From NCBI GenBank assembly GCA_021292105.1, contig CM037874.1, positions 59,932,539 through 59,996,538 on the forward strand: DNA of 64,000 nt. Direction: 5' to 3'. This DNA comes from Anadara kagoshimensis (lineage: Eukaryota > Mollusca > Bivalvia > Arcoida > Arcidae). The translations under genes and the position numbers were made by a program. Positions 29,752 through 59,128 of this stretch are shown here, one piece after another. The notes under the pieces are model-generated. The model did no database searches and was not told the DNA's origin. It saw only the letters and a program-made list of their open reading frames with translations. Position 1 is the first letter of the stretch; each line of letters begins with the position of its first letter.

Positions 29752-32233
29752 ATGGAATCAATGTCAGACAATTTTGTTCCAGAGGATGATAAATCTTCAT
29801 ATGCCCTTGAAGAGGATAATTGTTTCTCTTGTTCGTTTGATGACAAGAAATATCCAGCCACTACATATTGCCTACAGTGTGAAGAATTTTTATGTAAAAC
29901 ATGCACGGAAAAACACAAAATTCGCAAAGCTTTCAAAGATCATGAACCAATAGGAATAGAGAAATATAAAAAGACGGTGGATAGTAATGCCTACGTCTGT
30001 ACAGTGTGTGAAGATGAAGGTGTCAGTAAAATAGCTGAATCGACATGCAAAATATGTGAAGAAGACCTTTGTAAAACGTGCTCAGATGAACACAGAAGAA
30101 GAAAAGCCACAAAAACCCATACATTATTCCCAATTTCGGACAAAATAAAACGGGACTTAGAACTTAGTCAAATTATCTGTACAAACTGTAAGGAAGATGG
30201 TAGCGAAATCAAAGCTGAGTTTTACTGTGCAGAATGCGAAGAAAACCTTTGTGAATCTTGCAAGAAGAAACATGAAGTAAGGAAAGCAACAAAAAACCAT
30301 AGTATAACAAGTATAAGAGAATTGGCAAATGAAAAACTGAATATCCAGTTCACATGCGACTTATGTTACGAAGAACAAGAAGTGAGACCAGCAGAACATT
30401 TTTGTGATGAATGTGTGGAGTACATGTGCACAGATTGCAGCAAAAAACATCAGACTCGTAAGGCAACAAAATCCCATGAAATAAAAAAATGCTGTCCAAA
30501 TGAAAAATATGTGTGTGTTCAATGCCAAAACGCGGGAGCAAATATTTCAGCATTTTATTGCAGCCATTGTTTTTATCATTTTTGCCAAGCATGCGCTAGA
30601 ACACATAATTCAACGCGGGAAATAGAATCACACACAATGGTTATAACACAAACTTTCCTTGAGACGACAAAAGAAACAAAACAATGTACAATATGCAGAG
30701 CCGAAAACGAAGATCAAGCTGCTGTTTCATTTTGTAAGGACTGTTGTGGAAACTTTTGCGAGTTATGTGAAAAGAAACATGACTCAAAAGTAAAAGACCA
30801 TATAGTAGAAAGATTTGAACTGGATAAATATTATCCCTTGAAAGAACACACACAACAGATACTATGTGACACGTGCCAAAATCAAAATATAGCTGTAATA
30901 TGCTGTAAAGTATGCGAAGAAAATCTATGTAAACCATGCCAATATATACATCAAACACAAAAAGCAACACGCGGACATGAATTTGTTCATCTTGCAGAGA
31001 AACCTATCACACAAGATCTGAATCGCAAGTATTGCAGCCGTTGTTCTGGTAAAATTCCTGCTAGTGAGTATTGTAATACATGTAATCAGTACTTATGTCA
31101 ACATTGTACTAAAGATCACAGACGTAGTGGATCATTGAAATATCACAATCTACTCCAGATAGAATGTACCAAAGACACAGAGATTGAAAACATTGATCCT
31201 TTACAAAAAGAGATTGCATATGGAGATTTCCCAACGATGCTTGCCCCTACTGTACAGGACGCTACTACAAACACCATCACCATTTGCTGGAAAGAGCCAT
31301 CTGCTTCGCATTTACTTCTTGAATGTTTTGAAGTGCGATTCCGTAAAGCAATTATCCAGGGGCAATGGAATACAGAGATTTTGCAAACAATAGAAAACAA
31401 ATGTACAATAAACAATCTATCACCCGGCACTTCTTACGAGTTTCAAGTCCGTGCTAAATATGATATTGAAGGAGAGAAAGTGTATGGTCCTTACAGTGAT
31501 TCAAGCTCTCACATTCTTACAAAACAAATTGCATTAGGTAAACCAAAGGCTGTAGAATCATTGGGTGACAAAATAACAATTGAATGGGATATTCCTGCCG
31601 GTGATAAAACTGTATTAAACTATGAGATAAGGTATAGAAAAATCGGAGACACTAAATGGAAAGTTGATGTTACTGATGATCCAGTTCAAAAGGCAACAAT
31701 TGGCTGTTTACAAGGCAATACAAAATACGAATTCAAAGTTCGTGCTGTTTTTGAGACCGAAGAAGGTCCATATGGCCCCGTGAGTGACCAGATTACAACC
31801 AAAACATCTGATCCGGGAAAACCAAATTGTATAATTAAAGCAACAGACAGTATCACATTAAGTTGGAAAAGACCAGAAAGCGGTAAGCTTTCAATTAAAC
31901 ATTATGATATAAGGTATAGAATGGCTGGAGATGATAAGTGGACCGTGACATCAACAATGAATGACAACAACGAAACCTATAATGTGACTGGCTTAAAGGG
32001 AAGCAGTAAATATGAATTTCAAATAAGAGCAGTTTATGAAGATTTTGAGGGCCCATACGGAACAACCAGTGACCATATCGAAACAGAAACTACCCTGGCA
32101 AGAAAGATAAAGCACATTGCAACAATCAAACCTGGTACTTTAAATGATGGACAGCCTGAAATATACTCAGTACCAATTACTCTTGACCAAGACAGTGTAA
32201 ACCCGAAAGCCAAGTTCCGAAGATGCATATTTG
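29752..32233 (+). CDS. Exon 1 of multi-B-box / FN3 / GTPase-like protein
   Basis: This exon encodes residues 1-827 plus one base of codon 828. Eight B-box-like zinc fingers of about 40 residues follow one another at roughly 24-64, 83-123, 143-183, 202-242, 255-294, 312-350, 372-409 and 428-465. Each has the pattern CxxC...CxxC-x4-CxxC-x3-H...H. Three fibronectin type III domains follow at about 497-590, 598-685 and 691-778, each with a Trp strand (ICWKEP, IEWDIP, LSWKRP) and a YEF(Q/K)(V/I)RA strand. There is no RING and no obvious TRIM coiled coil. The ATG at 29752 (context GCGATGG) was chosen because the open frame upstream to 29611 crosses a good splice acceptor (GTGTTTCAG ending 29714). 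The real exon therefore probably starts at 29715 with a short 5' UTR. The donor is G|GTAATT after 32233 (phase 1). B-boxes and FN3 domains usually mediate protein contacts; an innate-immune or scaffold role is only an inference. Confidence 0.85.
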
Positions 32234-32660
32234 GTAATTATATTAGGATATAATTTCACACATTTTAAATATATCTGATTTATAAATTATACATGTGAAC
32301 CTCTACCAGGTAAGTGAAACCGGATGCTTCGAAAGGGTAAGCACGTGCTGTCTTGCATCCGCAATGAGTGAAATTAAAGTTGAGAAAGAAAAAAAAACAA
32401 GTTGGTGCTAGTTTGTTTAGAAGTAAAAGCAAAATGTGGAATACGGGTAGGGCTGAACGCTAATTCACTTCAAACATCTTAAGTCTAGCTTAAGTTGCAA
32501 AATAATTGGGATTATTTACATGAACCATGTGTTTCTTATGTTAGGACCCGAAGCCTAAATTTATAAAAAAAATTAAATCGATCTTCCCCTAATGATCCTA
32601 TATTCTAAACAAGCTACAATCTATCCACAATTTTACCATAATATTTTGTTTTATTTTCAG
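32234..32660 (+). other. Intron 1 with a decayed retroelement-tail fragment
   Basis: This is a 427-bp GT-AG intron. Reading past the donor meets a stop at 32251 (TAA). Positions about 32290-32400 resemble the minus-strand tail of the window's retroelement family (CTACCAGGTAAGTGA...GGATGCTTCG), but heavily diverged. Confidence 0.75.
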
Positions 32661-32842
32661 GTGAAGAATCCAGAAGTTGCGGAACCGAAAAAACAATTAT
32701 GGTAGTTGGAGCAACAGGATCGGGAAAAAGTACACTTATAGATGGAATGATAAATTATATTTTCGATGTGAGCTGGGAAGATGAATTTAGGTACAGTTTA
32801 ATAGACCTAACAAAAGAAGAAAAAGACAAATCCGGAAATCAG
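32661..32842 (+). CDS. Exon 2: P-loop (G1) half of the GTPase-like domain
   Basis: This 182-bp exon encodes residues 828-888 and is too short to stand out as an ORF. The acceptor is TTATTTTCAG ending 32660. The donor is CAG|GTAAGG after 32842, close to the metazoan consensus. Joined to exon 1 in phase 1, it reads through a Walker A / G1 motif, GATGSGKST (residues 844-852), which follows a hydrophobic strand (TIMVV), as in P-loop GTPases. It ends in phase 0 after the Gln of KSGNQ. The next part of the domain lies 24.9 kb downstream. Confidence is high because the splice sites, the phase and the motif all agree. Confidence 0.9.
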
Positions 32843-33014
32843 GTAAGGTACTTTTAAAGTTGAAATGAACGTTTGTAAATTTAAAAGCTATATACGACCA
32901 AACACTATAGTATTTTGACGGTCACAAACAACTGGTTTCCAAAAAACAACTTAAGTATATGTACATGTTATTTGAAGCTGTTTATGAAGTTTACTGTGAT
33001 AATTTCTTATTACG

Positions 33015-33585
33015 ACAAGGCAAGCTGCTTATAAATTGTTGACGCAGAAAATGGGATTTTTTTAAGGTTAGTCTAATCAAGGCCCTCATTTTTAATGGTC
33101 GTCATTACAATACTTTCATCAAATGAAACACAAACAAATTAGTCCATGTTCAAATCACAATTAAAAAGCAAAGTAAAACAACTAAAAACTGACAATTTAG
33201 TAAAACATCAAGAAAGTAAGTCCGGGTGGTCCGAATGGGTAAGTAACTAGCTAGCTACACCCGCTACGTGTAAAATCAAAATTGAAAATGATAGGAACAT
33301 GGAACTATGGGATGTCAAGATACTTCTCTCTATCAACAATATTGTAATTACTTCTAAAAGTTTTAATAAGCATAGGCTTGTATTAACCCCGAGTAACCAA
33401 TTTGTAAGCAGCTTGTTTCGCTGTTTAAAATGTCGCCTTTGAAAGTAAGTTGTATCCAAAGTTATCTTGGATGTATGTGTTCTATCCATTTTATATTTTA
33501 TATTTTGGTTCTACATTTGGCTGGTGGAGCTAACTAGACAGGAGGTACTCCCCCTTCCGAAGCACCCGGTCTTACTTCTCGTGTT
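33015..33585. pseudogene. Cluster of decayed RT fragments in both orientations
   Basis: 33015-33115 is + (AGCTGCTTATAAATTGTTGAC...GGTCGTCATTACAATAC). 33120-33440 is - (tail to AACATGGAACTATGGGATG and GCATAGGCTTGT). 33515-33585 is + (GGTGGAGCTAACTAGACAGG). The opposed pieces suggest nested insertions or inversion. Confidence 0.6.
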
Positions 33586-33685
33586 TTACTTCTTTTGTCA
33601 CCTTTGTGAAAATGCGATTTTAACATTGATCAGTATAGAAAACGGAAAACGGATTCCGCCTTACATCACCTATTTAGAAAATTAG

Positions 33686-34025
33686 GAGTTGAGAGTAATG
33701 GTGTTTAACGTCCCAGTCAAGAATATTTCACTTATATCGAGACGTCGCCAGCTATAGGCGAAGGTGCAGAAATTTTGCCTGTGCCTTGCACTGATGGCAT
33801 TATATAGCAGGGTTCTTTAGCGTGCCAAGCCCACCGTGACACGGGACCTCGTTTATTTTAAGTTCCCATCCGAAAGAACCGTGACTTTCATTTCGTAATG
33901 CCGAGTGCTTGGCTAAAGAACTGTCACTACCCACTTTCAAGTCTTGGGTCAGACTCGGCCGGGGTTCGAACCCACGACCTCCCACTTACGGGGCGAGCAC
34001 TCTACCAATTGAGCTACCGCAGTGG
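33686..34025 (-). mobile_element. tRNA-derived SINE with target-site duplications
   Basis: The minus strand starts with a tRNA-like head: GCGGTAGCTCAATTGGTAGA (A box) and, about 30 bases later, GGGTTCGAACCCC (B box). The body runs through GACAGTTCTTTAGCC and AATTTCTGCACCTTCGCC to the end GACGTTAAACACCATTACTC. The 11-bp direct repeat TAGAAAATTAG flanks it at 33675-33685 and 34026-34036. Both promoter boxes look intact. Three body-only copies lie in units 1-3. Transcription would be by RNA polymerase III and mobilisation by a LINE in trans (known for the class). Confidence 0.85.
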
Positions 34026-34332
34026 TAGAAAATTAGAAGGTTGTTACATTGATGAGTCGACATTTGCTTTATAACCCAGTCGATCTATAGTGGAATTACT
34101 AGTATCAGAAGTAACTAATTGAGATTGCATATATTCTTGAGCAGATCACAATTGACCGATAAAATGATCCCATTATATTACTTTTATAGGGTTAATTGTA
34201 TTTGATCAGGTCAAGTATGGAAAATTGATATTATCTTATATCAAAAGCTTAAGAAGTTTTATAACATAATTGTCTGAATACAATAATTAATTGATACTAT
34301 TATTACCAATATTTAATTGAGAAGAAATAAAA

Positions 34333-34845
34333 AAGAAACATACCAAGCCATGTCCAAATCACATTTCCTAAACAAAGTTAAAACTGTAGAGCTGGCAAAT
34401 TAAGTAAAACACATGATGCCAGATGCTCAGGGAGGGCAAGCATTCCCTGCTTGGCTAGCTACAGCCACATATGTAATCAACATTAAGAGCGATAAAACAT
34501 GGATCTATAGAGGGCAATTTGGGATACAAAGACATTATACTTGCCCTGATCAACCTAGGCTGGCATGCAATATCCTTGTGTCAATAATTTATTTGTAAGA
34601 TGGTTGCTTCGTTGTAAAAGGTTCCTACAGCAGGAACAAGCTCTGTCAGAGAGCATCAAATTCAGTCTTTCATGGGCGTCATAATTGATGTATAAGTCTA
34701 AATATGAAGCAGAGCTTAAAAAATCAGTCGAATATTTTTTTCAAGCTCACTAGAAATCATATAGTCTCCAAATTAAGAATTATAAATTGTTTAAACGTCA
34801 TCTGTAAAATGTATATGTGGAGTTGAATGATTTGGCGAATCTGGA
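34333..34845 (-). pseudogene. Decayed RT retroelement fragment
   Basis: From the tail (AAGAAACATACCAAGCCATG) through GGCTAGCTACAGCCAC, GATCAACCTAGGCTGGCATG and ATGAAGCAGAGCTTAAAAAATC to GTGGAGTTGAATGATTTGGC. The layout is as in 24127-24808 but much more diverged, so it is older. Confidence 0.65.
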
Positions 34846-34904
34846 ACAAAGACTATTTTAAAACTACTTAATATATTTAACTTTTAATTGTTTTGGTGAA
34901 CAAT

Positions 34905-35400
34905 TGGAAATATTTACGGACCAATTTCGACAAAATCGGCAGAAACACCAAGGTATACTCCCTCACGAAAAGTATTTCCTTAGCTTAACTTGGTTTAATA
35001 TAATTGGTCCTTTGGATTCCGAAACTGCCGTCTGGAGATATAAAATAAACACTGGTAAAACATATTATTCAAATCACTAAGCCGGTATCTCTGCTGATCC
35101 ATGTTTTCCCGAGGATATCACAAACTAAGTCAGCAATACTTTCGTAGTATCATAAAATATACTATTGATTAAATTTGCTGTTAATTAAAGTCTGAAAATC
35201 CTCAAAACCCGAGGTATGCTCCCTCAGGCAAAATATTCCCTTAGATACATTTGGTGAAATATATTTTGGTCTTTTGGATATTTTTTCAACCCCCTTGAAA
35301 ACATTTATGTTTCACAATTTGGATCCAAGCACTACTAATAAGGAATTGTGTTCCCAACTGGTCGTCTGGTGCTGTAAAATTAACATTGGTATAATATGTA
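34905..35400 (+). repeat. Dispersed repeat D, two diverged copies
   Basis: Two ~300-bp copies share AAGGTATACTCCCTCA, CTTTGGATTCCGAAACTGCCG, TCTCTGCTGATCC and GAGGATATCACAAACT with 49925-50645. The second ends GTATAATATGTAATCAAA just before the 30-bp array. Confidence 0.65.
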
Positions 35401-35497
35401 ATCAAAGTACTGAAAGTACTGAAATTCGAAAGCCACAATATGACAATACCGTTAACCAAATTGTAAAATATGCACATTATACACTATGTGACAAATA

Positions 35498-38400
35498 TGA
35501 CTATAGGATAGAACATGTGACACTAAATGACTATAGGATAGAACATGTAATACTAAATGACTAAAGGATAAAACATGTGACACTAAATGACTATAGGATA
35601 GAACATGTAATACTAAATGACTAAAGGATAAAACATGTGACACTAAATGACTATAGGAGAGAACATGTGACACTAAATGACTATAGGACAGAACATGTGA
35701 CACTAAATGACTATAAGACAGAACATGTGACACTAAATGACTATAAGACAGAACATGTGACACTAAATGACTATAGAGATAGAACATGTGATACTAAATG
35801 ACTATAGGACAGAACATGTGATACTAAATGACTATAAGATAGAACATATGACACTAAATGACTATAGGACAGAACATGTAACACTAAATGACTATATGAT
35901 AGAACATGCGATACTAAATGACTATAGGATAAAACATGTGATAATAAATGACTATAGCACAGAATATGTGACACTAAATGACTATACGACAGAACATGTG
36001 ACCCTAAATGACTATAGGACTAAACATGTGACACTAAATGGCTATAGGATAGAACATGTGATACTAAATGACTATAGGACAGAACATGTGACCCTAAATG
36101 ACCATAGGATAAAACATGTGATACTAAATGACTAAAGGACAGAACATGTGACCCTAAATGACTATAGGACTAAACATGTGACACTAAATGACTATAGCAT
36201 AGAACATGTGATAATAAATGACTATAGGACAGAATATGTGACACTAAATGACTATAACAAAGAACATATGATAATAAATGACTATAAGACAGAACATATG
36301 ACACTAAACGACTATAGGACAGAACATGTGGCACTAAATGACTATAGGACAGAACATGTGACACGAAATGACTATAAAACAGAACATGTGAAACTAAATG
36401 ACTATAAAATAGAACATGTGATACTAAATGACTATAAGACAGAACATGTGATAATAAATGACTATAGGACAGAACATGTGACACTAAATGACTATAGGAT
36501 AGAACATGTGATACTAAATGACTATAGGACAGAACATGTGATACTAAATGACTATAGGATAGAACATGTGACACTAAATGACTATAACAAAGAACATATG
36601 ATAATAAATGACTATAAGACAGAACATATGACACTAAACGACTATAGGACAGAACATGTGACACTAAATGACTATACGACAGAACATGTGATACTAAATG
36701 ACTATAGGACAGAATATGTGACACTAAATGACTATAACAAAGAACATATGATAATAAATGACTATAAGACAGAACATATGACACTAAACGACTATAGGAC
36801 AGAACATGTGGCACTAAATGACTATAGGACAGAACATGTGACACGAAATGACTATAAAACAGAACATGTGACACTAAATGACTATAAAATAGAACATGTG
36901 ATACAAAATGACTATAGAAAAGAACATGTGACACTAAATGACTATAAAATAGAACATGTGATACTAAATGACTATAAGACAGAACATGTGACACTAAATG
37001 ACTATAGGACAGAACATGTGACACTAAATTACTATAAGACAGAACATGTGACACTAAATGACTATACGACAGAACATGTGACACTAAATGACTATAGGAC
37101 AGAACATGTGACACAAAATGACTATAAAATAGAACATGTGAAACTAAATGATTATAGGATAGAACATGTGACACTAAATGACTATAAGACAGAACATGTG
37201 ACACAAAATGACTATAAAATAGAACATGTGACACTAAATGACTATAGGATAGAACATGTGATACTAAATAACTATAAGACAGAACATGTGACACAAAATG
37301 ACTATAGGATAGAACATGTGATACTAAATGACTATAGGACAGAACCTGTGACACTAAATGACTAAAAGATAGAACATGTGACACTAAATGACTATAAGAC
37401 AGAACATGTGACACTAAATGACTATAGGATAGAACATATCATAATAAATGACTATAAGATAGAAAATGTGACACTAAATGACTATAGGACAGAACATGTG
37501 ACACTAAATCACTATAAGACAGAACATGTGATACTAAATGACTATAGGACAGAACAGAACATGTGATACTAAATGACTATAGGATAGAACATGTGATACT
37601 AAATTACTATAGGATAAAACACGTGATACTAAATGACTATAGGATAAAACATGTGATAATAAATGACTATAGGACAGAATATGTGACACTAAATGACTAT
37701 AGGATAGAACATGTGACACTAAATAACTATTAGACAGAACATGTGACCCTAAATGACTATAGGACAGAATATGTGACACTAAATAACTATTAGACAGAAC
37801 ATGTGACCCTAAATGACTATAGGACTAAACATGTGACACTAAATGGCTATAGGATAGAACATGTGATACTAAATGAATATAGGACTAAACATGTGACACT
37901 AAATGGCTATAGGATAGAACATGTGACCCTAAATGACTATAGGACAGAACATGTGATACTAAATGACTATAGGACAGCACATGTGACCCTAAATGACTTT
38001 AGGACTAAACATGTGACATTAAATGGCTATAGCATAAAACATGTGATACTAAATGACTATAAGACAAAAGATGTGACACCAAATGACTATAGGATAAAAC
38101 ATGTGATACTAAATGACTAAAGGACAGAACATGTGACACTAAATGACTATAAGACAGAACATGTGACACTAAATGATTATAAGACAGAACATGTGACACT
38201 AAATGACTATAGGATAAAACATGTGATACTAAATGACTAAAGGACATAACATGTGACACTTAATGACTATAGGATAGAACATGTGATACTAAATGACTAT
38301 GGGACAGAACATGTGACACTAAATGACTTTAAGACAGAACATGTGATACTAATTGACTATAGGACAGAACATGTGACACTAAATGACTATACGACAGAAC

Positions 38401-41400
38401 ATGTGACACTAAATGACTATAAGACAGAACATGTAATACTAAATGACTATAGGATAGAACATGTGATACTAAATGACTATAAGACAGAACATGTGACACA
38501 AAATGACTATAAAATAGAACATGTGAAACTAAATGATTATAGGATAGAACATGTGACACTAAATGACTATAAGACAGAACATGTGACACAAAATGACTAT
38601 AAAATAGAACATGTGACACTAAATGACTATAGGATAGAACATGTGATACTAAATAACTATAAGACAGAACATGTGACACTAAATGACTATAGGATAGAAC
38701 ATGTGATACTAAATGACTATGGGACAGAACATGTGACACTAAATGACTTTAAGACAGAACATGTGATACTAATTGAATATAGGACAGAACATGTGACACT
38801 AAATGACTATAGGACAGAACATGTAAAACTAAATGACTATAGGATACAACATGTGACACTAAATGACTATAAGACAGAACATGTGATACTAAATGACTAT
38901 AGAATAGAACATGTGACACTAAACTACTATAAGACAGAACATGTGATAATAAATGACTTTAAGACAGAACATGTAGCACTAAATGACTATAGGACAGAAC
39001 ATGTGACACTAAATTACTATAGGACAGAACATGTGACACTAAATGACTATAAAACAGAACATGTGACACTAAATGACTATAAGACAGAACATGTGATACA
39101 AAATGACTATAAAATAGAACATGTGACACTAAATGATTATAGGATAGAACATGTGACACTAAATGACTATAAGACAGAACATGTGACACAAAATGACTAT
39201 AAAATAGAACATGTGCCACTAAATGACTATAGAATAGAACATATGATACTAAATGACTATAAGACAGAACATGTGACACTAAATGACTATAGGATAGAAC
39301 ATATGATACTAAATGACTATAAGACAGAACATGTGACACTAAATGACTATACGATAGAACATGTGACACAAAATGACTATAAAATAGAACATGTGATACT
39401 AAATGACTATAGGACAGAACATGTAGCACTAAATGACTATAGGACAGAACATGTGACACTAAATTACTATAGGACAGAACATGTAGCACTAAATGACTAT
39501 AGGACAGAATATGTGACACTAAATGACTATAAGACAGAACATGTGACACTAAATGACTATAAGACAGAACATGTGATACAAAATGACTATAAAATAGAAC
39601 ATGTGACACTAAATGATTATAGGATAGAACATGTGACACTAAATGACTATAAGACAGAACATGTGACACAAAATGACTATAAAATAGAACATGTGACACT
39701 AAATGACTATAGAATAGAACATATGATACTAAATGACTATAAGACAGAACATGTGACACTAAATGACTATAGGATAGAACATATGATACTAAATTACTAT
39801 AAGACAGAACATGTGACACTAAATGACTATAGGATAGAACATGTGACACAAAATGACTATAAAATAGAACATGTGATACTAAATGACTATAGGACAGAAC
39901 ATGTAGCACTAAATGACTATAGGACAGAACATGTGACACTAAATTACTATAGGACAGAACATGTAGCACTAAATGACTATAGGACAGAACATGTGACACT
40001 AAATTACTATAGGACAGAACATGTGATACTAAATGACTATAAGACAGAACATGTGACACTAAATGACTATAGGATAGAACATATGATACTAAATGACTAT
40101 AAGACAGAACATGTGACACTAAATGACTATAGGATAGAACATGTGACACAAAATGACTATAAAATAGAACATGTGATACTAAATGACTATAGGATAGAAC
40201 AAGTGACACTAAATGACTATAAGACAGAACATGTGACACTAAATGACTATGAGACAGAACATGTGATACTAATTGACTATAGGACAGAACATATGACACT
40301 AAATGACTATAGGACAGAACATGCGATACTAAATGACTTACAATAGAACATGTGATACTTAATGACTATAGGACAGAACCTGTGACACTAAATGACTAAA
40401 AGACAGAACATGTGACACTAAATGACTATAAGACAGAACATGTGACACTAAATGACTATAGGATAAAACATATCATAATAAATGACTAAAAGACAGAAAA
40501 TGTGACACTAAATGACTATAAGACAGAACATGTGATACTAAATGACTATAGGACAGAACAGAACATGTGATAATAAATGACTTTAAGACAGAACATGTGA
40601 CACTAAATCACTATAGGACAGAACATGTGACACTAAATCACTATAAGACAGAACATGTGATAATAAATGACTATAGGACAGAATATGTGACACTAAATAA
40701 CTATTAGACAGAACATGTGACCCTAAATGACTATAGGACTAAACATGTGACACTAAATGGCTATAGGATAGAACATGTGACACTAAATGACTATAGGACA
40801 GAACATGTGATACTAAATGACTCTAGGACAGCACATGTGACCCTAAATGACTTTAGGACTAAACATGTGATACTAAATGACTAAAGGACAGAACATGTGA
40901 CACTTAATGACTATAGGATAGAACATGTGATACTAAATGACTATAGGACAGAACAGAACACGTGATACTAAATGACTATAGGATAGAACATGTGATACTA
41001 AATGACTATAGGATAGAACATGTGATACTAAATGACTATAGGATAAAACACGTGATACTAAATGACTATAGGATAAAACATGTGATAATAAATGGCTATA
41101 GGATAAAACATGTGATACTAAATGACTATAAGACAAAAGATGTGACACCAAATGACTATAGGATAAAACATGTGATACTAAATGACTATGGGACAGAACA
41201 TGTGACACTAAATGACTTTAAGACAGAACATGTGATACTAATTGACTATAGGACAGAACATGTGACACTAAATGACTATAGGACAGAACATATGACACTA
41301 AATGACTATAAGACAGAACATGTGACACTAAATGACTATAAGACAGAACATGTGACACTAAATGACTATAGGATAAAACATGTGATACTAAATGACTAAA

Positions 41401-43210: not shown

Positions 43211-43410
43211 ACGACGGACAAAGACTGATCACTATAGCTCACTTGAGCACTTTATTATTGAGATATTTGATAACATCACAAAGGTAAAAAAAATCTAGGT
43301 CATGATCTTGATATCATTTCGATGTAATTAAAAGGAAATGTCAAAATTGAAAACCACATGTCATTATATATTGAAGCAGTAAACAAGAGGTCCAAAAGGG
43401 TCTGAAATGC
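43211..43410. other. Right flank of the 30-bp array
   Basis: The array decays into ACTATAGCTCACTTGAGCAC, then unique AT-rich DNA. Confidence 0.4.
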
Positions 43411-43414
43411 TAAA

Positions 43415-47117: not shown

Positions 47118-47404
47118 GACACCCCCTAAATACTCTGATGTAACTTTGAATGAGGCCCAATTTGTGTATAAATTCGTCAAATTTTTCAAATTTTCCCAAA
47201 ATTTCTCTATGTACAAATGAACTGGATAACTTTTTTGTCATTTAAAAATATAATTTGGTTAGGTCAGAGCATTTAAAATACAATTTATTGATAGTTCAAT
47301 GGAAACATTTTCAATTGAAATAAATAAATAAATAACAAAAACCATGTGCAATCAATTTATGGAAATACAGTAATTACTTTGAATGTATTGGGGCTATTTT
47401 TCAT

Positions 47405-49190
47405 ATACGAGAAAAGTCAGGGAAATAAGAGTGGTATTATCATTTAAGACAATTTAAATCATTATGAATGGATTCAGTCAAATAAAAAAAATTCATAGAT
47501 TTTAATCAATTTTAATATTCAAAATTAATTAATTCCGTAAGTCAGTCAGTTCACCAGTTCACACGTTCACACAAATCGAGACTTGTATGTCTCTTATTCA
47601 AATCAACTAATCTAATTTAACATTTATTTTTCAAACACATCTTTTCAGAATCCATCAAAAACGACAAATAACATTTACCGGGTATATCATAAAGATTTAT
47701 ACACACGTGTCAATTAATGTTGCAAATTGTAAGATAAATCCTGTTGATTACAGGTGATAGATGTCTACTTCTAAACAGGATGTTTCCCAATGTAGCATAT
47801 TGATAATCTCTTAATTACTGGTATGTGATCATGAGGAGGCGTAAGTCACACTTTAACCGATATTAATTTATTTTGAAAAAAATTAAAGAAAGTTTCACCC
47901 GAGTTTTGATTAAGCCATTAGTTAGTATCACATTTTGATTAGAGTTCTTTTCAGCTCATTAAAGTTAGGCGTAATAAAATTATTATTAATAGTAAATGAA
48001 AATTTTAAATATCATTTTTTGAATTTCATCATGGAAACACTGAAATTAAATCAAACATGAAGATTTAACAAAATGGGGATTGGAAATTTTATCACGACTC
48101 TATCGAAAAAAAATTAAACAATATTTGATAAAAAAATATAATTATATTGTTTACAAAAGTTTTCATATTCAAGTAATACTGGGGTGAAATATTTGATTTC
48201 AGAGACAATAAGAAGTTATTTTTAGACCTGTATTTTGACATTTTCGCTGTACAAAAATTTTACTCGAAAACGTGTTCTTTTGATTAATTACATGGATAAA
48301 TAATTATAATTATAATAATAATAAAATAATAATATATTGATTTTAACCTAATAAAATTAAAAATGGGACAATTTCTGAAACAAATATGAATAAAAATCAA
48401 TTTGAGGTAAATTAATAATATACCTGTACTATAGAGAAGAAAAAAGCGACAGACTACAGAATCCGGTCAAAAATGCTCGAAAATTATGTATGTTTTTAAT
48501 AAACACATTAATATTGATATTTAATATTAATTCAGCGAAATAATAAATAAATAAATAAATTCAACAGAGAAGTTAAGACATTTAGAATGATATTAAATAT
48601 TAATGAAAATAAATAATAATATTATAAATAAAAAAACGAAAATGTGTATTTTTTTTATCAATTCGTTTTGATAAATAGATAAAATAAAAAGATGAATAAA
48701 TAAATAAATAAATTAATTAATAAATAAATAATGTAAAATATGTTTTGTAATAGTATAAGTAATAGTATATCATACTTAGAGCAAACAAAAATATAGTTCT
48801 TATTTATTTATTTATTTATTATGTTTATTATTTTTTTTATTTTATGCTGAAGGAAATTGAAATATCCATTACTAAAAATAAATAAATAAATAAATAAAAC
48901 ATGATAAGTTACTACTGATAAATCTGGGTAATAAATACAGATCACTCTACAGGCTTTAGTTACTAGATAACTTGGATAACACCTTCTGCGTCACTTCCGG
49001 TTTTGGACCCTTTTACTACCAAAGGGAGATAACACCGTTTTTCAACAGTTTAAGGACTTTATTTTACGCTGTAACAAAAGACAGAAATGATTAAAAAAAT
49101 GTTATATGCTGCTAAATCGACTTTTTATTATGTAATCTTTCGGAAAATAGTACTAAAAAAATTCGGTTTTTGGTGACCGGTGACCTTTAA
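47405..49190 (+). repeat. ~2-kb tandem duplication, copy 1
   Basis: It parallels 49435-51487 from AGGGAAATAAGAGTGGTATT to ACCTTCTGCGTCACTTCC and AAATCGACTTTTTATTATGT. Between the copies lies a repeat-Y fragment (49160-49402). Confidence 0.75.
48540..48900. repeat. AAAT/TTTA microsatellite patches
   Basis: (AAAT)n-like runs at about 48541-48560, 48689-48731 and 48872-48897, and (TTTA)n at about 48803-48821. The duplicated region at 51055-51205 has shorter versions. Confidence 0.8.
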
Positions 49191-49402
49191 GCTGCTGAGG
49201 AAAGAGACATTGCCTATATATGTAACTTGTTGGTTTTTGTGACATTTTAATGGGTTTTTAAGTTTGATTTAAAGTCAAATGATATATTTTGTGAAGTTTA
49301 GATATTATTATACTACAATGAACGATAAACAACAATTTTTTTCACAAATTTCAGATCAAATTAAAGCCAAATTTACACAAGTTCCTCATGCAGCTTTCTA
49401 AT
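49160..49402 (+). repeat. Dispersed repeat Y, 5'-truncated copy
   Basis: GGTGACCGGTGACCTTTAAG, then GCTGCTGAGGAAAGAGACAT to ATTAAAGCCAAATTTACACA. It matches 45045-45245. Confidence 0.65.
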
Positions 49403-49434
49403 TGCTTTAATACCTTCAAGTTATTTTTCATTTC

Positions 49435-51487
49435 ATATAAGTTAGGGAAATAAGAGTGGTATAATGATTTAAGATATTTCAAATTATTATGAACAAATTC
49501 AGTAAAATAAAAAAAACATAGATTTTAATCAATTTTAATCTTCAAAATTAATTTAATTCCGTAATTCAGTCAGTTCACTAATTCATACGTTCTAACAAAT
49601 ATCTTGTTCAAATCAAGTGTCAATTAATGTTGCAAATTTTAAGTTGGTTGGTTGGTTGATATTAATATATTGTGAAAAAATGAATAAGAGTTTCACTCGA
49701 GTTTTGATTAAGTCGTTAGTTAGTCAGGTTCAATCCCACTGGTATCACATTTTGATACGAGTTCTTGTTTTTTTTATACCATTAAAGTTAGGCGTAATAA
49801 GGTTATTATTATTATCATATGACAATTTTTAAAATATATATTTTTTAATTTTCATCATGGAGACACTGGAATTACCGAGAATAAAGAATAGGAAGCTATT
49901 GATTTTAATTAGAAATCGGAATTTGTCTAGTGCTGTAAAATAAAAACTGGTATAATATGTAATTTAAACCCCTGAGCCGATATCTCTGCTGGTGGCTGGT
50001 GCCCCGAGGATATCACCAACTCAGTAGGCAATAATTTCGTATTATTGTCAGAAATATGCTATAATTGTCTAAATTTCCTGCAAGTTAAAATTTGAAATTT
50101 CTCAAAAACTAAGGTATACTCCCTCATGCAAAGTATTTCCTAAGCTTAACTTGGTAAAATATATTTTGGTCCTTTGTATAGCTTTTCAACATCTTCAAAA
50201 TAATTTTGGTTTCATAATTATGGTCCAAGCACTACTGATGAGGAATTGTATTCCGAAACGGCCGTCTAGTGCTGTAAAATTAAAACTGGTATAATATGTA
50301 ATTTAAACCCCTGAGCCGATATCTCTGCTGGTGGCTGGTGCCCCGAGGATATCACCAACTCAGTAGCAATAATTTCGTATTATTGTCAGAAATATACTAT
50401 AATTGTCTAAATTTCCTGCAAGTTAAAATTTGAAATTTCTCAAAACTAAGGTATACTCCCTCATGCAAAGTATTTCCTTAGCTTAATTTGGTAAAATATA
50501 TTTGGTCCTTTGTATAGCTTTTCAACATCTTCAAAATAATTTTGGTTTCATAATTATGGTCCAAGCACTACTGGTGAGGAATTGTATTCCGAAACGGCCG
50601 TCTAGTGCTGTAAAATTAAAACTGGTATAATATGTAATTACAAACGTTTTCATATTCAAGTAATCCTGATTTGAGAGTCAATAAGAAGTTTTTTTATTCA
50701 AGCCTCTATTTTGATTTTTTGTTGTACAGAAACTACAGGTCTTGGACCCGGATTCTGCTCGAAAACGTGTTTTTTATTAATTACATGGATAAATAAAAAT
50801 AATAATATCTTAATAATAATAATAATAATAAATTATTGGATTTTTTCTAAAAAGAATTTAAAAATGGGACATTTTCTAAAACAAAATGCCGAAATAAATA
50901 ATCAAATAAATGAATAAATTATAAATTACTCCAAAAGAGATGTTAAGATATCTAAAATGATATCATATATTAATGAAAATTAATATGAATAATATTTTAA
51001 ATATTAATCGAAAATGTGTGCTCTTTTTATTAATTCCTTGTGATAAATAGATAAAAATAAATAAATAAATAAATTCCAAAGAAATGAAATATTATGCTTT
51101 GTAATCGGTTAATTATCATACTTATAGCAAACAAAAGTATATTTATTTATTTATTTTTCTGCTAAAGGAAACTGAAATATCCAATACTATAAATAAATAA
51201 ATGTAGGAAAACATGAGAAATTACTACTGATAAATCTGGGTAATAAATACAGTTCATTATACAAGCTTCAGTTACTAAATAGCTTGGATATCACCTTCTG
51301 CGTCACTTCCTGTTTTGTGCCCGTTTACTACCAAAGGGAGATAACACCGTGTTTCAACAATTTTAGGACTTTATCTTACGCTGTAAAAAAGAGAGAAATA
51401 ATTTAAAATATTTGTGTTGCTAAATCGACTTTTTATCATGTAATCTTTCGGAAAATAGAACTAAAAAATTCAGGTTTTGGTGACCTT
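49435..51487 (+). repeat. ~2-kb tandem duplication, copy 2
   Basis: Copy of 47405-49190. It differs mainly by the repeat-D block at 49925-50645, which copy 1 lacks. Confidence 0.75.
49925..50645 (+). repeat. Repeat D, tandem units of ~338 bp
   Basis: Two full units and a partial third have starts (TGCTGTAAAAT) at about 49931, 50270 and 50606. The units are nearly identical, so the tandem step is recent. Each contains CCGAGGATATCACCAACTCA and TATTCCGAAACGGCCGTCTA. Confidence 0.85.
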
Positions 51488-54224
51488 TAAACAGTGATAT
51501 AATCAACTCCTTTAGGTTTATTGACAGACATACTGTGATGACATCAGTAATGCATTTTATGTAAGCAAACATCAAACAAAGTCTTTTTGCTTAGGGTTAC
51601 AGAAATATTTTTGATTATTTATCATACAGGAATCATTCAGTGAATTGGGATCCACCAAATAATTTTAGTCGAAGGGCCATAACTTTCAGGAAATTGAACA
51701 AAACAATTTGGGTTAATGGAATGCTCATCTCCTATCAATGTTCATGCTTTGCTCCAAGTTTCATGAAATACTGCTTTATAGTTTTGGAGAATTAGCACAG
51801 ACAAAAATTTCAAATGAACAGGTTGAAACTCAAATTTATGGGGTTATGAAAATGAGCTTTGCAGAATGTACCTAAGAGATGATTTAAAGCTTTGATACAA
51901 ATATTATGAATTCAACAATAACAAAGTATCTATAAACTACACAGTTTTTAAACTTCAAATGTACATAGTCAAATCTGCCTTAAAGGCCACCTCAGTCCTT
52001 TACATCTAAATAAAGGTCACCTGCATTTAAAGGCTGGTAATTTTTTTTATTGCACTTTCTCTTTATTCATGTTATTTAAACATCTATATAAGGACCAAAA
52101 ATATATTTTAAACATCACAATTCTCATATGCATACCAGTAACAAATCCTTCAGGGGGCAGGTGCTTGTTTTTATTCTGTAACTTGACACACTGTTGAGTT
52201 GTTGGTATTTGACTGTACACAGTAAGTCACAGGTTAAAACTGTCTCATAGTCTCATGTCTAACATTCTTGACCTACAGATCATCTCTTTCATTTGACAAT
52301 CAATCTTTAACTCATTTTGATTTTAACTGTGTTTCTTCATTTCATGATCTCCAATCTAAAAAAAAAATTGGTGATGGTACATCTGGACATTCCAACTTTG
52401 GTGATAGTAAGTAACTCAGAATTGACAAACTTTACATTGTAAACAGGATCATAAACAACTAGTGTGATATTGGAAATGAAGTTGAATGACATCGGAGTAC
52501 AATTCTCTTTTTGTGTATTAACCAATGGTTCTAGTTTGATTTGCTTGGATGTCAATTCTCGGAAACATTTTTTTGTTTCAATTAGCCTTCAGAAGTCATC
52601 ACTAAATGTTTCCTAAGTCTAATGAATAACAACAACCATACCTGTTTGTATGGTGTACTTCATGTTTGAAATATAAAATTAAAACCAACCTTCCCATTTC
52701 ATTTGAAACAATTAACATCAACATAACAGTGAGAAGAAACTACACCAAAGGATTATTTTCTTGAACAAAAAACAGCACATAAATACACCCCCCTAAAAAC
52801 TGACATAAAATTCCAAATTTTGCTGCCGATTAAAAACCTTCATACTTCATAAATAACATGAAATCTCATTAATTAAATCATTTAAAAATTCTTTTTAAGC
52901 GTTTAATTTGACAGGTACATCCTTTCACCACCTACACTTCTTCAAGTAACAGGTAGGTACCACAAAACAAGTGATACCCCCCACAAAAAAACCAAGAACC
53001 GATTTAATCCTTAAATCGACCTATTGACCCGGTTATGGATGTACTTGAAGGGGAGATTTACTAAAATAAATGTCTCGCCCATTATTCCTTTACAATGGAC
53101 ATACTGTACTCATAGATACATAAGAAATATTTTTTAATTTAGGAAATTAAAAGAATCGTCCTTAAATCAGAAATAAACGCCTTTCAAGAATAATATAACC
53201 ATTCTATAGGAGAAAAATTTTTCGCCAGAGGTCAAGATATGGCTAGATTTAAAATATCAAATGATATTATTTATTTCACTTTTGTATACTTATTAATCAA
53301 TATTTAGGCAATTCAAGTTTTTCTGTTTTTAATCATTTTATATAAATAATTATTATAACTGTTAAAACAGAATGTTGTCTAGCAGTCACCCCTAATCTTC
53401 CTAATCACACAAACTCATCTGCAGCTTACAACAACTTACGTCAAGTTCTTTCTTGGCTGATGTGAGTGAAATCATAGTGCTGTACATATGGACCAGACAA
53501 GATTCTGTCACATAAATTGAGGTACACCGGGTAGTCAGTTTTAAGATTGAAGATGAAAATGCAGTTTGCGGATAATAACCATTAACTCACTACAGGACAT
53601 ATCTGGTAATGACCGACAATAAGTAATCACAGATTTATGAGGTCTGTTATTATGCAGGTCATTTTCTAGGGATATTAATGTCATCCTGAACTAATTTTTG
53701 TTTCTATATTTGAATTTTTCAGATATAGAACGGAAAAACAATATATATAGATTACAAGAATTCATTCATTAAAATGTTATCCAAAATCTTAAATAAACGT
53801 ACCATGACAAGTACACGGATACAATGAAAATTGACAAGTGTCCATTCCAGGCTAATCTGGCCCTCAGTATGCCATGTATTTAACACAACTTACTCTTCCG
53901 AAACATATCTTTTTAATAAAATTTGAATTTTGTTCCGGTTTTAAGTATCTTTAAGATTGTTTTCTTTTTTAGATAATTAAAACAAGAAATTTTTAAAAAG
54001 GTGAAAATGGTGTATTGTGTTTCTTTTGACAGATTTTTATGTATTTTTTTCTGCTTTTAAGAATCTTACAAAGATAATGTTCTATTTTGGATGAATAAAA
54101 ACAAATAAATGTTAAAAAAGTTAAAATGGTGTGTAAAACGGTCATACATATATTATATATGAATCATCTTCTATTTGATAGACTTGTCAATTGTTTGAAA
54201 TGGTGATTTATGCCCTAGTAATGA
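51488..54224. other. No gene seen inside intron 2
   Basis: A TIR-like phrase, CTGCCTTAAAGGCCACCTCA (about 51976), recalls 17055-17080. A 72-codon minus frame at 52337-52555 has no recognisable family. The region 52600-53100 has a mild GC rise but no splice-bounded frame I could defend. Confidence 0.35.
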
Positions 54225-54460
54225 TTTTCAGGGGCTCAAAATTATTTTTGTGAACTTTTATTTTGGAAGGTCCAGGACCTTTTGCATTTTTTGCAGGTCC
54301 CATATAAAATTTTTTAAAGGCCAATGTCAGTCAATATAGAAAGGTCCATATGCAATTATGTTATTATATAGAAAAAGTAGTATAATAAAAAACTGCAGGT
54401 CCATTGGACAGTTTAAATATCAAGCGTTCCAATGTAAAATCAAAAGGTCCTGAATGTATT
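54225..54460 (+). repeat. Dispersed repeat E, copy 1
   Basis: It shares GGGGCTCAAAATT, GCAGGTCCCA, TGCAATTATGTTAT and CAGTTTAAATATC with 56520-56790 in the same order. Confidence 0.6.
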
Positions 54461-56519
54461 TTTTCACTTACGTCATCTTAATCTGTCATTGCGTGATTAG
54501 TGAATGTACAAATAGAAGACAAACAAATTCAGAGTTCAGAGAGTGATTGAATGGTTCAAATGAAATGCCCCAAACAAGAATATTGTTTATTATATCAAGA
54601 TGTCACCAGCTAAAGGTGAAATGGAATATATATATATGACATTTCAGAAATATATTACACAAATTTAGTTTATTCAAGGTGCCTCAAAATCAGCAGACAA
54701 CCTCTACACTTGGTCGCCTGTCAGAAATTTCAGAAATTTAACTTCTGACAGACTTGACTGTATCAGTTTAAGATAATGTGTCATTTCAGTGAATAAACAG
54801 TTACATTAATTATGCAAATTACAACTCATACTTTTTTTCAAATAAAAAAATAAATTTAAGTTGTTATGTTATCCCTTCTTCCTTTTTATAAAATAAAATT
54901 ACCCTAATGTTCTGAAGGCCTAACTACAGTTATAGAGTTGTAGTTTAGAGTTAGAATGGAGTTCAAGTCAAAATTTTCACTTATATCAAGATGGGCAGTT
55001 CAGGGATGATTGAGGAAACTGAAGTGCCCAAAGAAAACCACTGACCTTTGGCAAGCAAACTAACATTTCATGTTGGAATCCACCTCAAGTGGAAATCAAA
55101 AACAGAAAATGAAAATTAATGGTTGTGGTCATTAAGGATGTTTTTAGACCACTGAAAACCTGAAAACTGTAAGAAACTGTTCAAAAATTTTTATTATGAT
55201 AATAAATTGATATTTTTTATCTTTAATATATTGTTACTTTGTCAATGGTAGATCCAGATCTCTTTTTTTAAAAAATTCTTGTTTTTAAATGGTAACTTGA
55301 TATTACATGTATATTTAACTATGTAAAATATTTCACAAGACATAACAACAAATAAGTTTTCTTTCATAACCGTGGCCATGATTATTCATGAAACAAAAAT
55401 TACAAGAAAACACCATACATCTCCTGATATAGAGTGGGTGCAGTGACATGACACATTGCCTCATTTAAAGTTAAATATCACCCTCACCTGACTTCAATGT
55501 GGCCTTAAAGAACCAATCACATGTTACAATGGTCTTAAATGAAAAATATCTACAATGCCAATGAAATTTTATCATCCATATAAATATGTGCCGAAAATCT
55601 CTCTTAGGCCAAACAACATAAATTGTTTCTTGTTTCAGGTTTTTAACAGTTGGTTTTTACATAAAATTTGTGACCAGAAAAAAGTAGTTACAGCCAACAT
55701 AACTCGAACATGACACAAAACAAACTGAATGATAAAACAGCCAAATAAAAAAATACAGATTGGAGTGGAATGGGAAAATTGTGTTTTATTCCCAAGCCAA
55801 GATACTTTCAATTAATATATTTTGAGGTGGTCAGGTTGGCATAATGATGCTTTACGCCAAAGTCAAAGTTCTTTTACATCTGAACAGAATAACCTCTTCA
55901 CATAAGATGCTGCTGAAGTGGAATCCTAACTGGCCTGTTACCATCCTTGGATGCAGTAGCCATTTCTCATGATCCTTTTTCAGAATCTAACCCTGCTTCC
56001 CAATTATTCATTACAACCAGTTTATTTATTTGGCCTTTGCCAATCCCCAATTTAATTTCACTGAATTTTTTAGTCAAGTTTTGAAAAGAATAAGATTGCA
56101 ACAGGTTTATATACATAAACATATATACTTAAACAATGATGATTGATAATTTATGGGAACACACGCTTATTGTATCAGTTACAGAAGATAACTGAGTGAA
56201 TATTATGTATCTTTTTACTTTAAGGTGACCTTTGTCACAGTATTATATCAACTATTGATTTTCTTTATGCAACTTTGTGGTCTTGTTTTCTTGAAAGTCA
56301 AAACTAACAGCAGTCAGTGAATAATCTAGGTTATAGCTAAGGAAATACTTTTTTGAAAAATGGAAATAATTATGAAAGAGCGAGAGAGAGAGAGTGTAAG
56401 AATGTAAGAATGTAACGGAGACAGAAGGAAGGGGAAATAATTAGAATAAACTTTTTGACATTATAAACTTTTAATTTTGATTATTTGAGTACACTAAACT
56501 AAAATTGTCTCTGAGGAAG
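54461..56519. other. No gene seen
   Basis: AT-rich intronic DNA. A short GA run at 56381-56395. No motif or open frame of note. Confidence 0.35.
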
Positions 56520-56790
56520 ACCATGAGGGGCTCAAAATTGTGTTTTATAATCATGAAAGTTTATGGACCTTCTGTCTTTACTTTTGGCAGGTCCCACATA
56601 TAGTTTTGAAAGTCCAATATTACCACTATTGAACATGTGCAATTATGTTATCATAAAGAAAATGAAGTATTATCCTGGTAAAATATGGCATGTCCATTTG
56701 ACTTTTCCAGTTTAAATATCCAGAGTCCCATCGATAAAATCGATAGGTCCCGGACCTTGGACCTTGGGAATTTTAAACCCCTGAAGACCG
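56520..56790 (+). repeat. Dispersed repeat E, copy 2
   Basis: Counterpart of 54225-54460. It ends with GGTCCCGGACCTTGGACCTT, a short internal repeat. Confidence 0.6.
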
Positions 56791-57524
56791 ATACATGCAT
56801 CCCCCATCCCACTTTGTTGGTAAGAGTAAACTCATTATAGGTGATGGGTTCTTTTGATGCTTAACATCTGTAAATAGTTTAGGAATAACTGGATCATACA
56901 AAAATGAATAAATATTTGAACAAATTTGGATTTACGGCCAAATTCCAAGTGTAAAAATTTCCGGAGAAGTCAAGATATGAAAATAACATTAATTTGGAGC
57001 TTGACTGGGATATAAAAATAAAAATCGACAAGAATTTGTCTTATCGCAGCAATATGATATTTGTGTATCATCAAGATTAATAATATCACAAAAATACAAA
57101 TAAATACCGGCGGATTTCTACATCTGATTAGTGAGACAAACCCATTATAAAACAAATTCATTTATCAATTGAAGAACTTACACATCACATTTCTAGGATT
57201 GAAGGAGTCTTATACATTTCTTAGGAGAAATCCAACCAATTGACGTATCGCCAGCTACGCCTTTTGTTCCGACACTTGTCGCCATCACAGTACAAAAGCA
57301 GCATCATGGCAACTAATGACAGACTAGTGTCAGTGATGTCATTAAATGGTAAATTCAGACCGAGTTTTTGTTCTTTTTGTGTGTAATTCAAAAATGTCTG
57401 GCCTTTGTCTGGAAAATGTGGATGTAGCCGGCGATCTGTCAATTATACCATTATCCTGATAGCACATTACATTCGGGAGTGCATATCAAAATAGAGGTAA
57501 AAAGTCCAAATATATTACAGTACT

Positions 57525-57602
57525 TTAAGAATCGGTCGTATCTTTTATTTCAGTTTACTTGGATATTTTTTATAATCTCCCAATTTAGGATTATGTATAA
57601 TA
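57525..57602 (-). pseudogene. Small decayed RT fragment upstream of exon 3
   Basis: It matches 24683-24760 (GAATCGGTCGTATCTTTTAT, AGTTTACTTGGATA, ATAATCTCCCAATTTAGGAT), the region coding NPKFGDYV...DTTDS. About 165 bp from the exon 3 acceptor. Confidence 0.5.
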
Positions 57603-57766
57603 TATATTATTTTGTTATTGAGGTGGGTTATGATTATTGGGCATTGGTAAGTGCAAACATTTCAGCTGCATATTTCCCTCGACATCTTTAATTAAGATCC
57701 TGCTCTTGACGAAACTTGTGCAGGTACCATTTTATTAAGTAATATAATCTATAATCTTACTTTAAG

Positions 57767-59128
57767 GCACTGTCTCAAACAGAGTGGATCACATCTTATA
57801 AAATAAACCACACTGAAGGATCTCAAATCTATTACACACTCAATATAATAGATACACCAGGTTTTGGGGACACCCGGGGAATAACACGAGATAGAATGAT
57901 AGTTGATCAAATGACAGAATTGTTTTCAACCAAAGGAAGTAACGGGATAGCAACTATTGATGCAGTTTGCTTTGTCGCTCAAGCACCTAATGGGAGATTG
58001 TCGCCTACACAGAAGTACATTTTTGAGAGCATTTTGTCCCTCTTTGGAAAAAATATAGCAGAAAACATCTTCATTCTCATTACCTTTGCAGACGGAAACA
58101 CCCCTCCGGTATTAAGTGCCTTAAAAGCAGCTAATGTTCCATTTGTAGAAAAATTTGTCTTCAACAATTCGGCATTATTCGCCTCAAGAGATGCAGATTT
58201 TGCAACGATGTTTTGGAATATGGGTAAGGAAAGCTTCAAAAAGTTCTTTGGGTACCTTAATACCGCAAAGACGAAAAGTTTAGTAATGACGGCAGATGTT
58301 TTGAAAGAAAGAAGCAATCTAGAAGGAACGGTTCAATGTTTGAGGCCTCAAATAAGTGAAGGCTTAAACAAACTGGAAACACTCAGACAGACAAGACAAG
58401 CCCTTTTACAACATAAAACAGATATTGAAGCAAATAAAAATTTTGAGTATGAAGTAGAAGAGACTCTTCAAAATAAAATAGACTTAGACGCTGGTGTATA
58501 CACTACCAATTGTTTGACATGCAACAGAACATGCCATTTTCCATGTGCTATCTCAAATGATGCGGACAAATCTGGGTGTGCAGCAATGTCTGGAGGTAAA
58601 TGCAAAGTTTGTCCAAACAAATGCAAGTGGGATGTACACAAGAACAATCCATATAAATTTGAATTATACAAAAAGAAGGTTAAGAAAACATATGACGAAT
58701 TAAAAACGAAGTATGAAACGGCAACAGGAGAAGCACAATCAAGTTTCCAGATATTCCAATCCATCAAAGAAGACTTTGTTGAGTTAAGGAAGAAAGTTGG
58801 AAAAATGGTGCAGGAAGTCAGACTGACATTGAATCGCTTATCAGTGATTGCACTGAAGCCAAACCCCTTGTCAGATTGTGAGTACATTGACCTGTTGATT
58901 CATACCGAAAAGCAAGAGGCAAAAGAGGGTTGGTTGGAAAGAGTTGCAATGTTATCAAACCTTAGAAAAGACGCAGAACAAATACAGCAAGTCTCAGATG
59001 ATGGATTTGAACCATGGAAAGACATCAATTTCGATGATCTAGAGGCTGATTTTGAGAACATAAGCAAAACAAACACTAAACAAACAAAAACTCAAAAAAT
59101 CTTGAACTTTTTGGGATTTAAATCTTAA
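57767..59128 (+). CDS. Exon 3: rest of the GTPase-like domain and Cys-rich C-terminus
   Basis: This is the terminal exon, encoding residues 889-1341 and a TAA stop. The acceptor is TACTTTAAG ending 57766, a weak polypyrimidine tract, and the phase is 0. The G3 motif DTPGFGDTRG is at about 917-926. The usual NKxD (G4) position appears to be ITFAD (about 993-997), so base recognition may be atypical. After the G domain there is a charged, probably helical stretch, then a Cys/His cluster at about 1137-1179 (NCLTCNRTCHFPC, then VCPNKCKWDVH). This could bind metal. A second Lys/Glu-rich helical region follows, and the protein ends in FLGFKS. The frame is open upstream of the first internal Met (57896) back to the acceptor, so 57896 is not a gene start. 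The G1 to G3 spacing is about 73 residues, longer than I would expect for a compact AIG1/GIMAP domain, so I leave the GTPase subfamily open. Confidence 0.87.
   Translation, partial: ALSQTEWITSYKINHTEGSQIYYTLNIIDTPGFGDTRGITRDRMIVDQMTELFSTKGSNGIATIDAVCFVAQAPNGRLSPTQKYIFESILSLFGKNIAENIFILITFADGNTPPVLSALKAANVPFVEKFVFNNSALFASRDADFATMFWNMGKESFKKFFGYLNTAKTKSLVMTADVLKERSNLEGTVQCLRPQISEGLNKLETLRQTRQALLQHKTDIEANKNFEYEVEETLQNKIDLDAGVYTTNCLTCNRTCHFPCAISNDADKSGCAAMSGGKCKVCPNKCKWDVHKNNPYKFELYKKKVKKTYDELKTKYETATGEAQSSFQIFQSIKEDFVELRKKVGKMVQEVRLTLNRLSVIALKPNPLSDCEYIDLLIHTEKQEAKEGWLERVAMLSNLRKDAEQIQQVSDDGFEPWKDINFDDLEADFENISKTNTKQTKTQKILNFLGFKS

Follow-up and report, generated by a model that had tools for sequence, protein, structure and literature searches.

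The 64,000-nucleotide stretch of the Anadara kagoshimensis genome analyzed here (contig CM037874.1, positions 59,932,539 to 59,996,538; hereafter the window) contains a gene predicted to encode a protein of 1341 residues in which an arm of eight B-box zinc fingers and three FN3 domains precedes a P-loop GTPase domain and a C-terminal cysteine-rich cluster. Profile searches suggest that the GTPase forms a separate family among the P-loop GTPases, on the side of septins, AIG1 and Toc34, and paralogs with the same module order in the same genome indicate that the gene belongs to a family and is not an isolated fusion. The protein is proposed to be a scaffold that is switched by nucleotide, has an adjustable B-box/FN3 arm and probably operates in innate defence, a reading for which the chances, taken as a whole, appear about evenly balanced.

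The three coding exons (Table 1) join in one frame of 1341 residues plus a stop codon without an internal stop, and are bordered by GT-AG splice sites (donors GTAATT and GTAAGG; acceptors TTTTCAG and TTTAAG) in phases 1 and 0. The original prediction, which a model had made from the letters of the window, proposed three phase-compatible exons giving 1341 residues, and its coordinates, phases and length proved exact. Conservation of the exon borders among the paralogs, which are located on contigs designated C9, C11, and C18, is the best available substitute for cDNA. The upstream exon, which bears FN3, was read in nine of the 12 paralogs (those at C9:69.00, C18:33.94, and C18:34.35 were left out), and each of the nine has a phase-1 G|GT donor at its end. 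The sequence CAG|GT in phase 0 ends nine of the 13 P-loop exons; those without it are the four C18 34 Mb copies, and L037 has CAA|GTAAGA, also in phase 0. Judged from the frame, the splice sites and the paralog-conserved borders, the model probably represents one three-exon gene with the module order first proposed.

Table 1. Positions of the gene, its domains and the tandem repeats in the window.
Feature	Position	Strand	Remarks
Coding exon 1	29752..32233	+	Encodes the B-boxes, the FN3 domains and a linker; 3′ end ..CIFG|GT, phase 1
Eight B-box zinc fingers	29821..31146	+	Pattern matches; PF22586 (7 stretches) and PF00643 on the segment
B-box starts	29821, 29998, 30178, 30355, 30514, 30685, 30865, 31033	+	Cys/His pattern
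Three FN3 domains	31243..32088 (approximate limits)	+	Pfam fn3, 3 stretches, 1.5e-33
Coding exon 2	32661..32842	+	P-loop exon, with GATGSGKST beginning at 32708; the genome has 12 more
Intron 2	32843..57766	+	24.9 kb; contains the 7.7 kb minisatellite
Minisatellite	35486-43208		In intron 2; 7.7 kb, 30-bp unit, ~257 copies
Coding exon 3	57767..59128	+	Remaining G domain (switch Thr, DTPGFG, TFAD, FNN) and C-terminal region with Cys cluster
G3 box DTPGFG	57851..57868	+	Conserved columns
Cys8-His2 cluster	58511..58639	+	Residues 1137-1179, behind the G domain; ten invariant Cys/His columns
Stop codon	59126-59128	+	End of exon 3
37-bp minisatellite, two arrays	1152-4709 and 5432-6039		Nearly identical unit; ~95 and 16 copies

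The arm was assessed by pattern and by profile. The Cys/His pattern of the B-box gave eight complete matches between residues 24 and 465, whereas of 2000 shuffled versions of the same 478 residues two had one match and the other 1998 had none. The Pfam B-box profiles PF22586 (91.4 bits vs a cut-off of 27) and PF00643 (59 bits vs 24.1) both scored, and the eightfold Cys/His spacing noted originally is upheld. PF22586 passed in six stretches of the whole protein and in seven when the B-box segment was searched alone; the eighth box is supported by the Cys/His pattern and PF00643. The three FN3 cores that had been described were recovered as three stretches by Pfam fn3 (115.3 bits vs a cut-off of 25). 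Pairwise identity among the eight B-boxes is 22–49%, which implies that the array in the window is not recent, and an origin by recent internal duplication was rejected. Box-to-box correspondence is clear between the C9 copies at 69.12 and 74.99 Mb, in which boxes 1–6 of the former equate with boxes 2–7 of the latter at 63–95% identity, and is unclear between the window and the paralogs with which it was compared.

The G1 (GATGSGKST) and G3 (DTPGFG) boxes of a P-loop GTPase are present, and the Pfam Septin profile PF00735 scored 33.9 bits vs a cut-off of 26.2, in agreement with the GTPase-like domain of the original prediction. A profile search of the separate modules had been proposed along with that prediction as a way in which it might fail; both the B-box and the GTPase segments scored. 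When a profile built from six members of the family was compared with PDB, septins were the best matches (4e-6 and weaker) followed by Toc34-type proteins (0.0038 and weaker), and there was no GIMAP structure among the matches up to an E value of 0.1. NCBIfam and PADLOC yielded only weak P-loop matches for the window GTPase, those from NCBIfam being far below their cut-offs. The switch Thr, DTPGFG, TFAD, and FNN are invariant in five aligned members. The Pfam and PDB results together place the GTPase, as a putative family in its own right, on the septin/AIG1/Toc34 side, and the profile, with septins as best matches, lends support to the earlier suggestion of a switch- or assembly-type GTPase.

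Exon 3 also encodes a Cys8-His2 cluster that is absent from the original prediction. The residues are spaced C-x2-C-x3-C-H-x2-C-x10-C-x7-C-x2-C-x3-C-x4-H, and all ten columns are invariant in five aligned sequences, including one from a bacterium that is described below. The cluster is likely to be a zinc site. The region of exon 3 behind the G domain had no Pfam match above cut-off; the sole match over the cluster was Self-incomp_S1 (PF05938) at 15.8 bits, far below the cut-off of 24.

The 1.115 Gb assembly, which comprises 36 contigs, was searched for further copies of each module. P-loop exons were recovered from 13 of 13 candidates and are confined to three contigs, where the family copies are clustered in tandem and inverted arrangements. 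Exon 3 matched in 19 of 24 candidates, some of which are pieces of one copy. B-boxes were abundant, unlike the GTPase: a first look gave 1500 candidates, and the 150 that were scored all matched, a value that is a lower bound. A stop-free exon-3 match could be paired by position with ten of the 13 P-loop exons, including that of the window. The other three copies are broken in exon 3, namely C9:75.52 (two frames and a TGA), C9:69.00 (split), and C18:33.94 (split, with a TAA).

The arm varies between copies, with six to eight B-boxes in the intact arrays that were read and one to three FN3 domains in the B-box copies that were scanned. B-box arrays were detected by pattern in six of the nine paralogs read: seven boxes each in the copies at C11 11.39, C11 12.00, C9 74.99, and C9 75.52 Mb; six at C9 69.12 Mb; and four in an interrupted exon at C9 69.09 Mb (L043). 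The Pfam fn3 scan of the B-box paralogs covered L035, L038, L044, and L046, each of which has one fn3 stretch behind the B-boxes (L043 and L047 were left out). In the three remaining paralogs the stretch read contains FN3 but no B-boxes (L036 with L051, 14 kb; L037 with L050, 15 kb; L045, 6 kb). The copies at C9 74.99/75.52 Mb and C11 11.39/12.00 Mb form inverted pairs 0.5–0.6 Mb apart, and are interpreted as recent inverted duplications or uncollapsed haplotypes. The first exons of the C9 pair are without difference over 700 codons, so that this pair may stem from a single recent duplication or from copying in the assembly. Separately, the C11 paralog L035 bears five near-identical repeats of ~21 residues (ITTTACEVDNSAISEHSDDIN) before its B-boxes (L035:3080-3430, approximate); its sister copy L044 shows one unit.

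Selection on the modules was estimated by the Nei-Gojobori method as the ratio of non-synonymous to synonymous change (dN/dS). The C11 pair gave values of 0.65 for the B-boxes, 0.61 for FN3, and 0.28 for the GTPase, with 0.45 for the N-terminal tail, although the B-box counts for this pair are small (25 non-synonymous and 9 synonymous). The comparison of the C9 copies at 69.12 and 74.99 Mb gave 0.29, 0.26, and 0.11 for the B-boxes, FN3, and GTPase, respectively. In both pairs in which all modules were measurable, the only two of this kind, the arm thus evolves two to three times faster than the GTPase relative to synonymous change; the B-box arrays compared include linkers and differ in length. 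Measured for the GTPase alone, comparisons inside the C9 69 Mb cluster gave 0.13 and 0.24, and those of the C18 group gave 0.47 and 0.27. The C18 rows miss residues around the junction of the P-loop exon and exon 3, and their dN/dS values and identities derive from the remaining columns. The C9 74.99/75.52 Mb pair, with its unchanged exon 1, was uninformative, and synonymous sites were saturated or nearly so in pairs with the window and between C9 and C11. The GTPase is under purifying selection. Sites in the faster arm other than the metal ligands may be less constrained.

Relatives outside the animal genome were sought with an exact degenerate DNA pattern for DTPGFGDTRG in contigs of at least 3 kb from 84,980 bacterial and archaeal species, a search that misses other spellings of the motif. 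Two stretches matched; the viral collection gave none, and phage and plasmid records had no match to exon 3. A profile-guided viral match (L049, 38% identity over query residues 57–136) was rejected as its frame reads as a different GTPase. The closest relative found is an intact gene in the Bacteroidetes metagenome-assembled genome (MAG) MAG-78 (JAHDHV010000146.1; L002:3496-5139). It encodes 547 amino acids with 49% identity to the window GTPase over 480 aligned positions (47% over the family alignment), keeps the G boxes and the Cys cluster, lacks B-box or fn3 matches, and scores above cut-off with both Septin and AIG1 PF04548 (30.7 bits for the latter). The second relative, from an Okeania MAG, is broken. 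Samples of 395 genomes from the phylum of the Bacteroidetes MAG and 386 from that of Okeania, with few candidates scored per genome, yielded matches at 1e-20 only in the two seed genomes, which indicates a patchy distribution of the family among the bacteria covered. The linker in front of the P-loop was also compared with the two bacterial proteins, and no reliance is placed on homology there: one of eight comparisons beat all 2000 shuffles, and in the other seven 164 to 1977 of 2000 shuffles were as high.

A second GTPase gene begins 25 bases behind the first on the Bacteroidetes contig, and a divergent reverse transcriptase that scores 419 bits with the PADLOC UG37 model, listed under DRT, lies beside them. 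Downstream are genes for a histidine kinase and a DUF2867 protein; with these and the neighboring genes the contig looks bacterial. The segment L002:582-7192, in which the two adjacent GTPase genes stand opposite the UG37-type reverse transcriptase, is a possible undescribed defence island, although a single neighborhood of this kind is no proof of a functional link between the reverse transcriptase and the GTPase. A wider interpretation, which is regarded as distinctly unlikely, is that a conflict-type GTPase family, a member of which lies beside a UG37 defence-type reverse transcriptase in one bacterium, is common to animals and a few bacteria, and that inter-domain transfer followed by addition of the B-box/FN3 arm, of adjustable length, in animals produced a new class of defence scaffold. 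The bacterial relative also offers a small, intron-free protein with which to solve and assay the shared engine and Cys cluster.

How might the window protein work? It would be a soluble GTPase, probably intracellular in view of its hydrophilic N-terminus and zinc fingers, with a long N-terminal arm in which eight B-boxes are followed by three FN3 domains. B-boxes are interaction and self-association modules, and the arm accordingly might capture or cluster partners multivalently in the manner of TRIM B-boxes. As in septins and AIG1-type proteins, the G domain may act as a switch and assemble through contacts that depend on GTP, and the Cys cluster may stabilize the region behind it. The most likely setting is innate defence, because mollusc AIG expansions with exchangeable domains and bivalve TRADD-N fusions have been reported. 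AIG genes are described as expanded in bivalves and gastropods, and in one snail 91 complete AIG genes show 19 domain arrangements (PMC7053062); AIG-GTPases and B-boxes are among the domains in the C-terminal regions of bivalve TRADD-N expansions (PMC8195603). The immune part considered by itself, which draws on this analogy, is given roughly an even chance.

Several observations weigh against this interpretation. The AIG1 profile PF04548 scored 25.4 bits in the window protein, under the cut-off of 27. The best and sole stretch matched by Septin PF00735 spans profile positions 2–75 of 280, and a full septin G domain was not recovered from the window protein. A C-terminal amphipathic, membrane-type helix was not found in the window protein (moment of 0.09, with 88% of shuffles as high), which leaves a membrane-binding C-terminus unsupported there; the moments were 0.28–0.45 in the other nine animal copies (5–33% of shuffles as high) and 0.61 in the bacterial relative (0.9%). 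No module had a dN/dS above 1, so that an arms race is compatible with the data but is not demonstrated by them. Finally, B-boxes are not mentioned in PMC7053062 (0 occurrences), and the link of that work to the present family therefore is by analogy.

The protein instead might be a septin-like scaffold for the cytoskeleton or for membrane remodelling with a housekeeping or developmental role that is not immune, which is possible but unlikely. The best profile matches, which are septins, and the purifying selection on the GTPase favor this reading, but the variable numbers of B-box and FN3 domains, the clustered paralogs and the three broken copies among 13 suggest a conflict-type family, and the patchy bacterial relatives also look more conflict-type, although these points are indirect. 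It is very unlikely that the gene in the window is dispensable or in decay as part of a gene family subject to turnover: other copies are broken in exon 3 or, in L043, interrupted in the B-box exon, but that in the window has an unbroken frame of 1341 codons, each of its eight B-boxes retains the full Cys/His pattern and the ten Cys/His residues of its cluster are kept.

There is very little chance that the protein acts in TRIM-like fashion as a ubiquitin or SUMO ligase, with catalysis by the B-boxes, whose fold is related to that of RING. This possibility is favored by the five PDB matches that include the B-box structures of TIF1-beta (TRIM28) and PML. Nevertheless, the lack of a RING that had been remarked upon originally was substantiated: Pfam detected none in the protein, and a pattern search of the unspliced six frames of the window found no separate RING, its single match overlapping two B-boxes. 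A possible acceptor, TTTCAG, is located 37 bases before the ATG of the window gene, which makes a further 5′ exon likely, and the frame is open from this acceptor to the ATG, so that a coding upstream exon is formally possible in the window copy. However, in-frame stops precede the ATG of the B-box exon in paralogs, with TAA two codons upstream in the C11 copies, TGA seven codons upstream in the C9 copies at 74.99 and 75.52 Mb, and TAA nine codons upstream in that at C9 69.12 Mb, which makes an upstream RING exon unlikely. Hardly any weight can be given to a mis-joined model with two genes, one for the B-boxes and FN3 and one for the GTPase. Exon 1 could read through to a stop that ends at 32253, and intron 2 is long and repeat-rich, but the phase-1 G|GT donor is only 179–1075 bases from the P-loop codon, with an AG in matching phase between, in nine of nine paralogs read and the P-loop exon is only 0.4–3.5 kb from the exon-3 match in the 12 paralogs.

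The minisatellite in intron 2 of the window gene has a unit whose length is a multiple of three, which generates long artefact reading frames on both strands. The intron behind the P-loop exon also has a tandem array, with a different unit of 69 bp, in the C9 paralogs L029 and L030; the C9 paralog L025 has a similar repetitive frame there, and only short-period repeats were listed for the C11 paralog L023. Elsewhere in the window, a reverse-transcriptase-like frame at 10838-11821 scored 25 bits with RVT_1, below the cut-off of 29.6. A similar stretch occurs in another, short frame at 14230-14511, and both frames are possible retroelement remains.

Comparison with known systems sets the predicted protein apart from each of them. 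It resembles septins in its Pfam score and its best PDB matches, but the Pfam match ends at profile position 75 of 280. Likeness to AIG1/GIMAP proteins is one of profile, more so for the bacterial relative than for the window protein, and the TFAD and FNN motifs, invariant in the five aligned members, may correspond to the TxxD at G4 and FNN at G5 of GIMAP proteins; the window protein differs in its sub-threshold score, in the lack of GIMAP structures among its PDB matches, and in having its own C-terminal Cys cluster and a B-box/FN3 arm. The chloroplast import GTPase Toc34 matches over the G3 to G4 part, but the likeness is weak by NCBIfam (TIGR00991, 18.7 bits, far below cut-off) and the architecture is otherwise. 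Proteins of fish and invertebrates that combine FN3 with a G domain (PANTHER ‘G domain-containing’) presumably share the P-loop, DTPGFGDTRG, and the Cys cluster, and are not known to carry a B-box array. No description of the combination of B-box array, FN3, and GTPase was recognized in searches of open-licence literature. With TRIM and other B-box proteins the window protein shares boxes that match Pfam, in which the Cys at the second ligand is taken to be B-box1-like. It differs from them in that no RING was found and in that intact arrays of the family have six to eight B-boxes with FN3 and GTPase domains behind. The family would represent a repeated and maintained fusion, outside the TRIM plan, in which a GTPase of the septin/AIG1 side is joined to a long array of B-boxes. 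With 13 P-loop exons in a single genome, an arm that varies and a steadier engine, it provides a defined set in which B-box multivalency can be tested.

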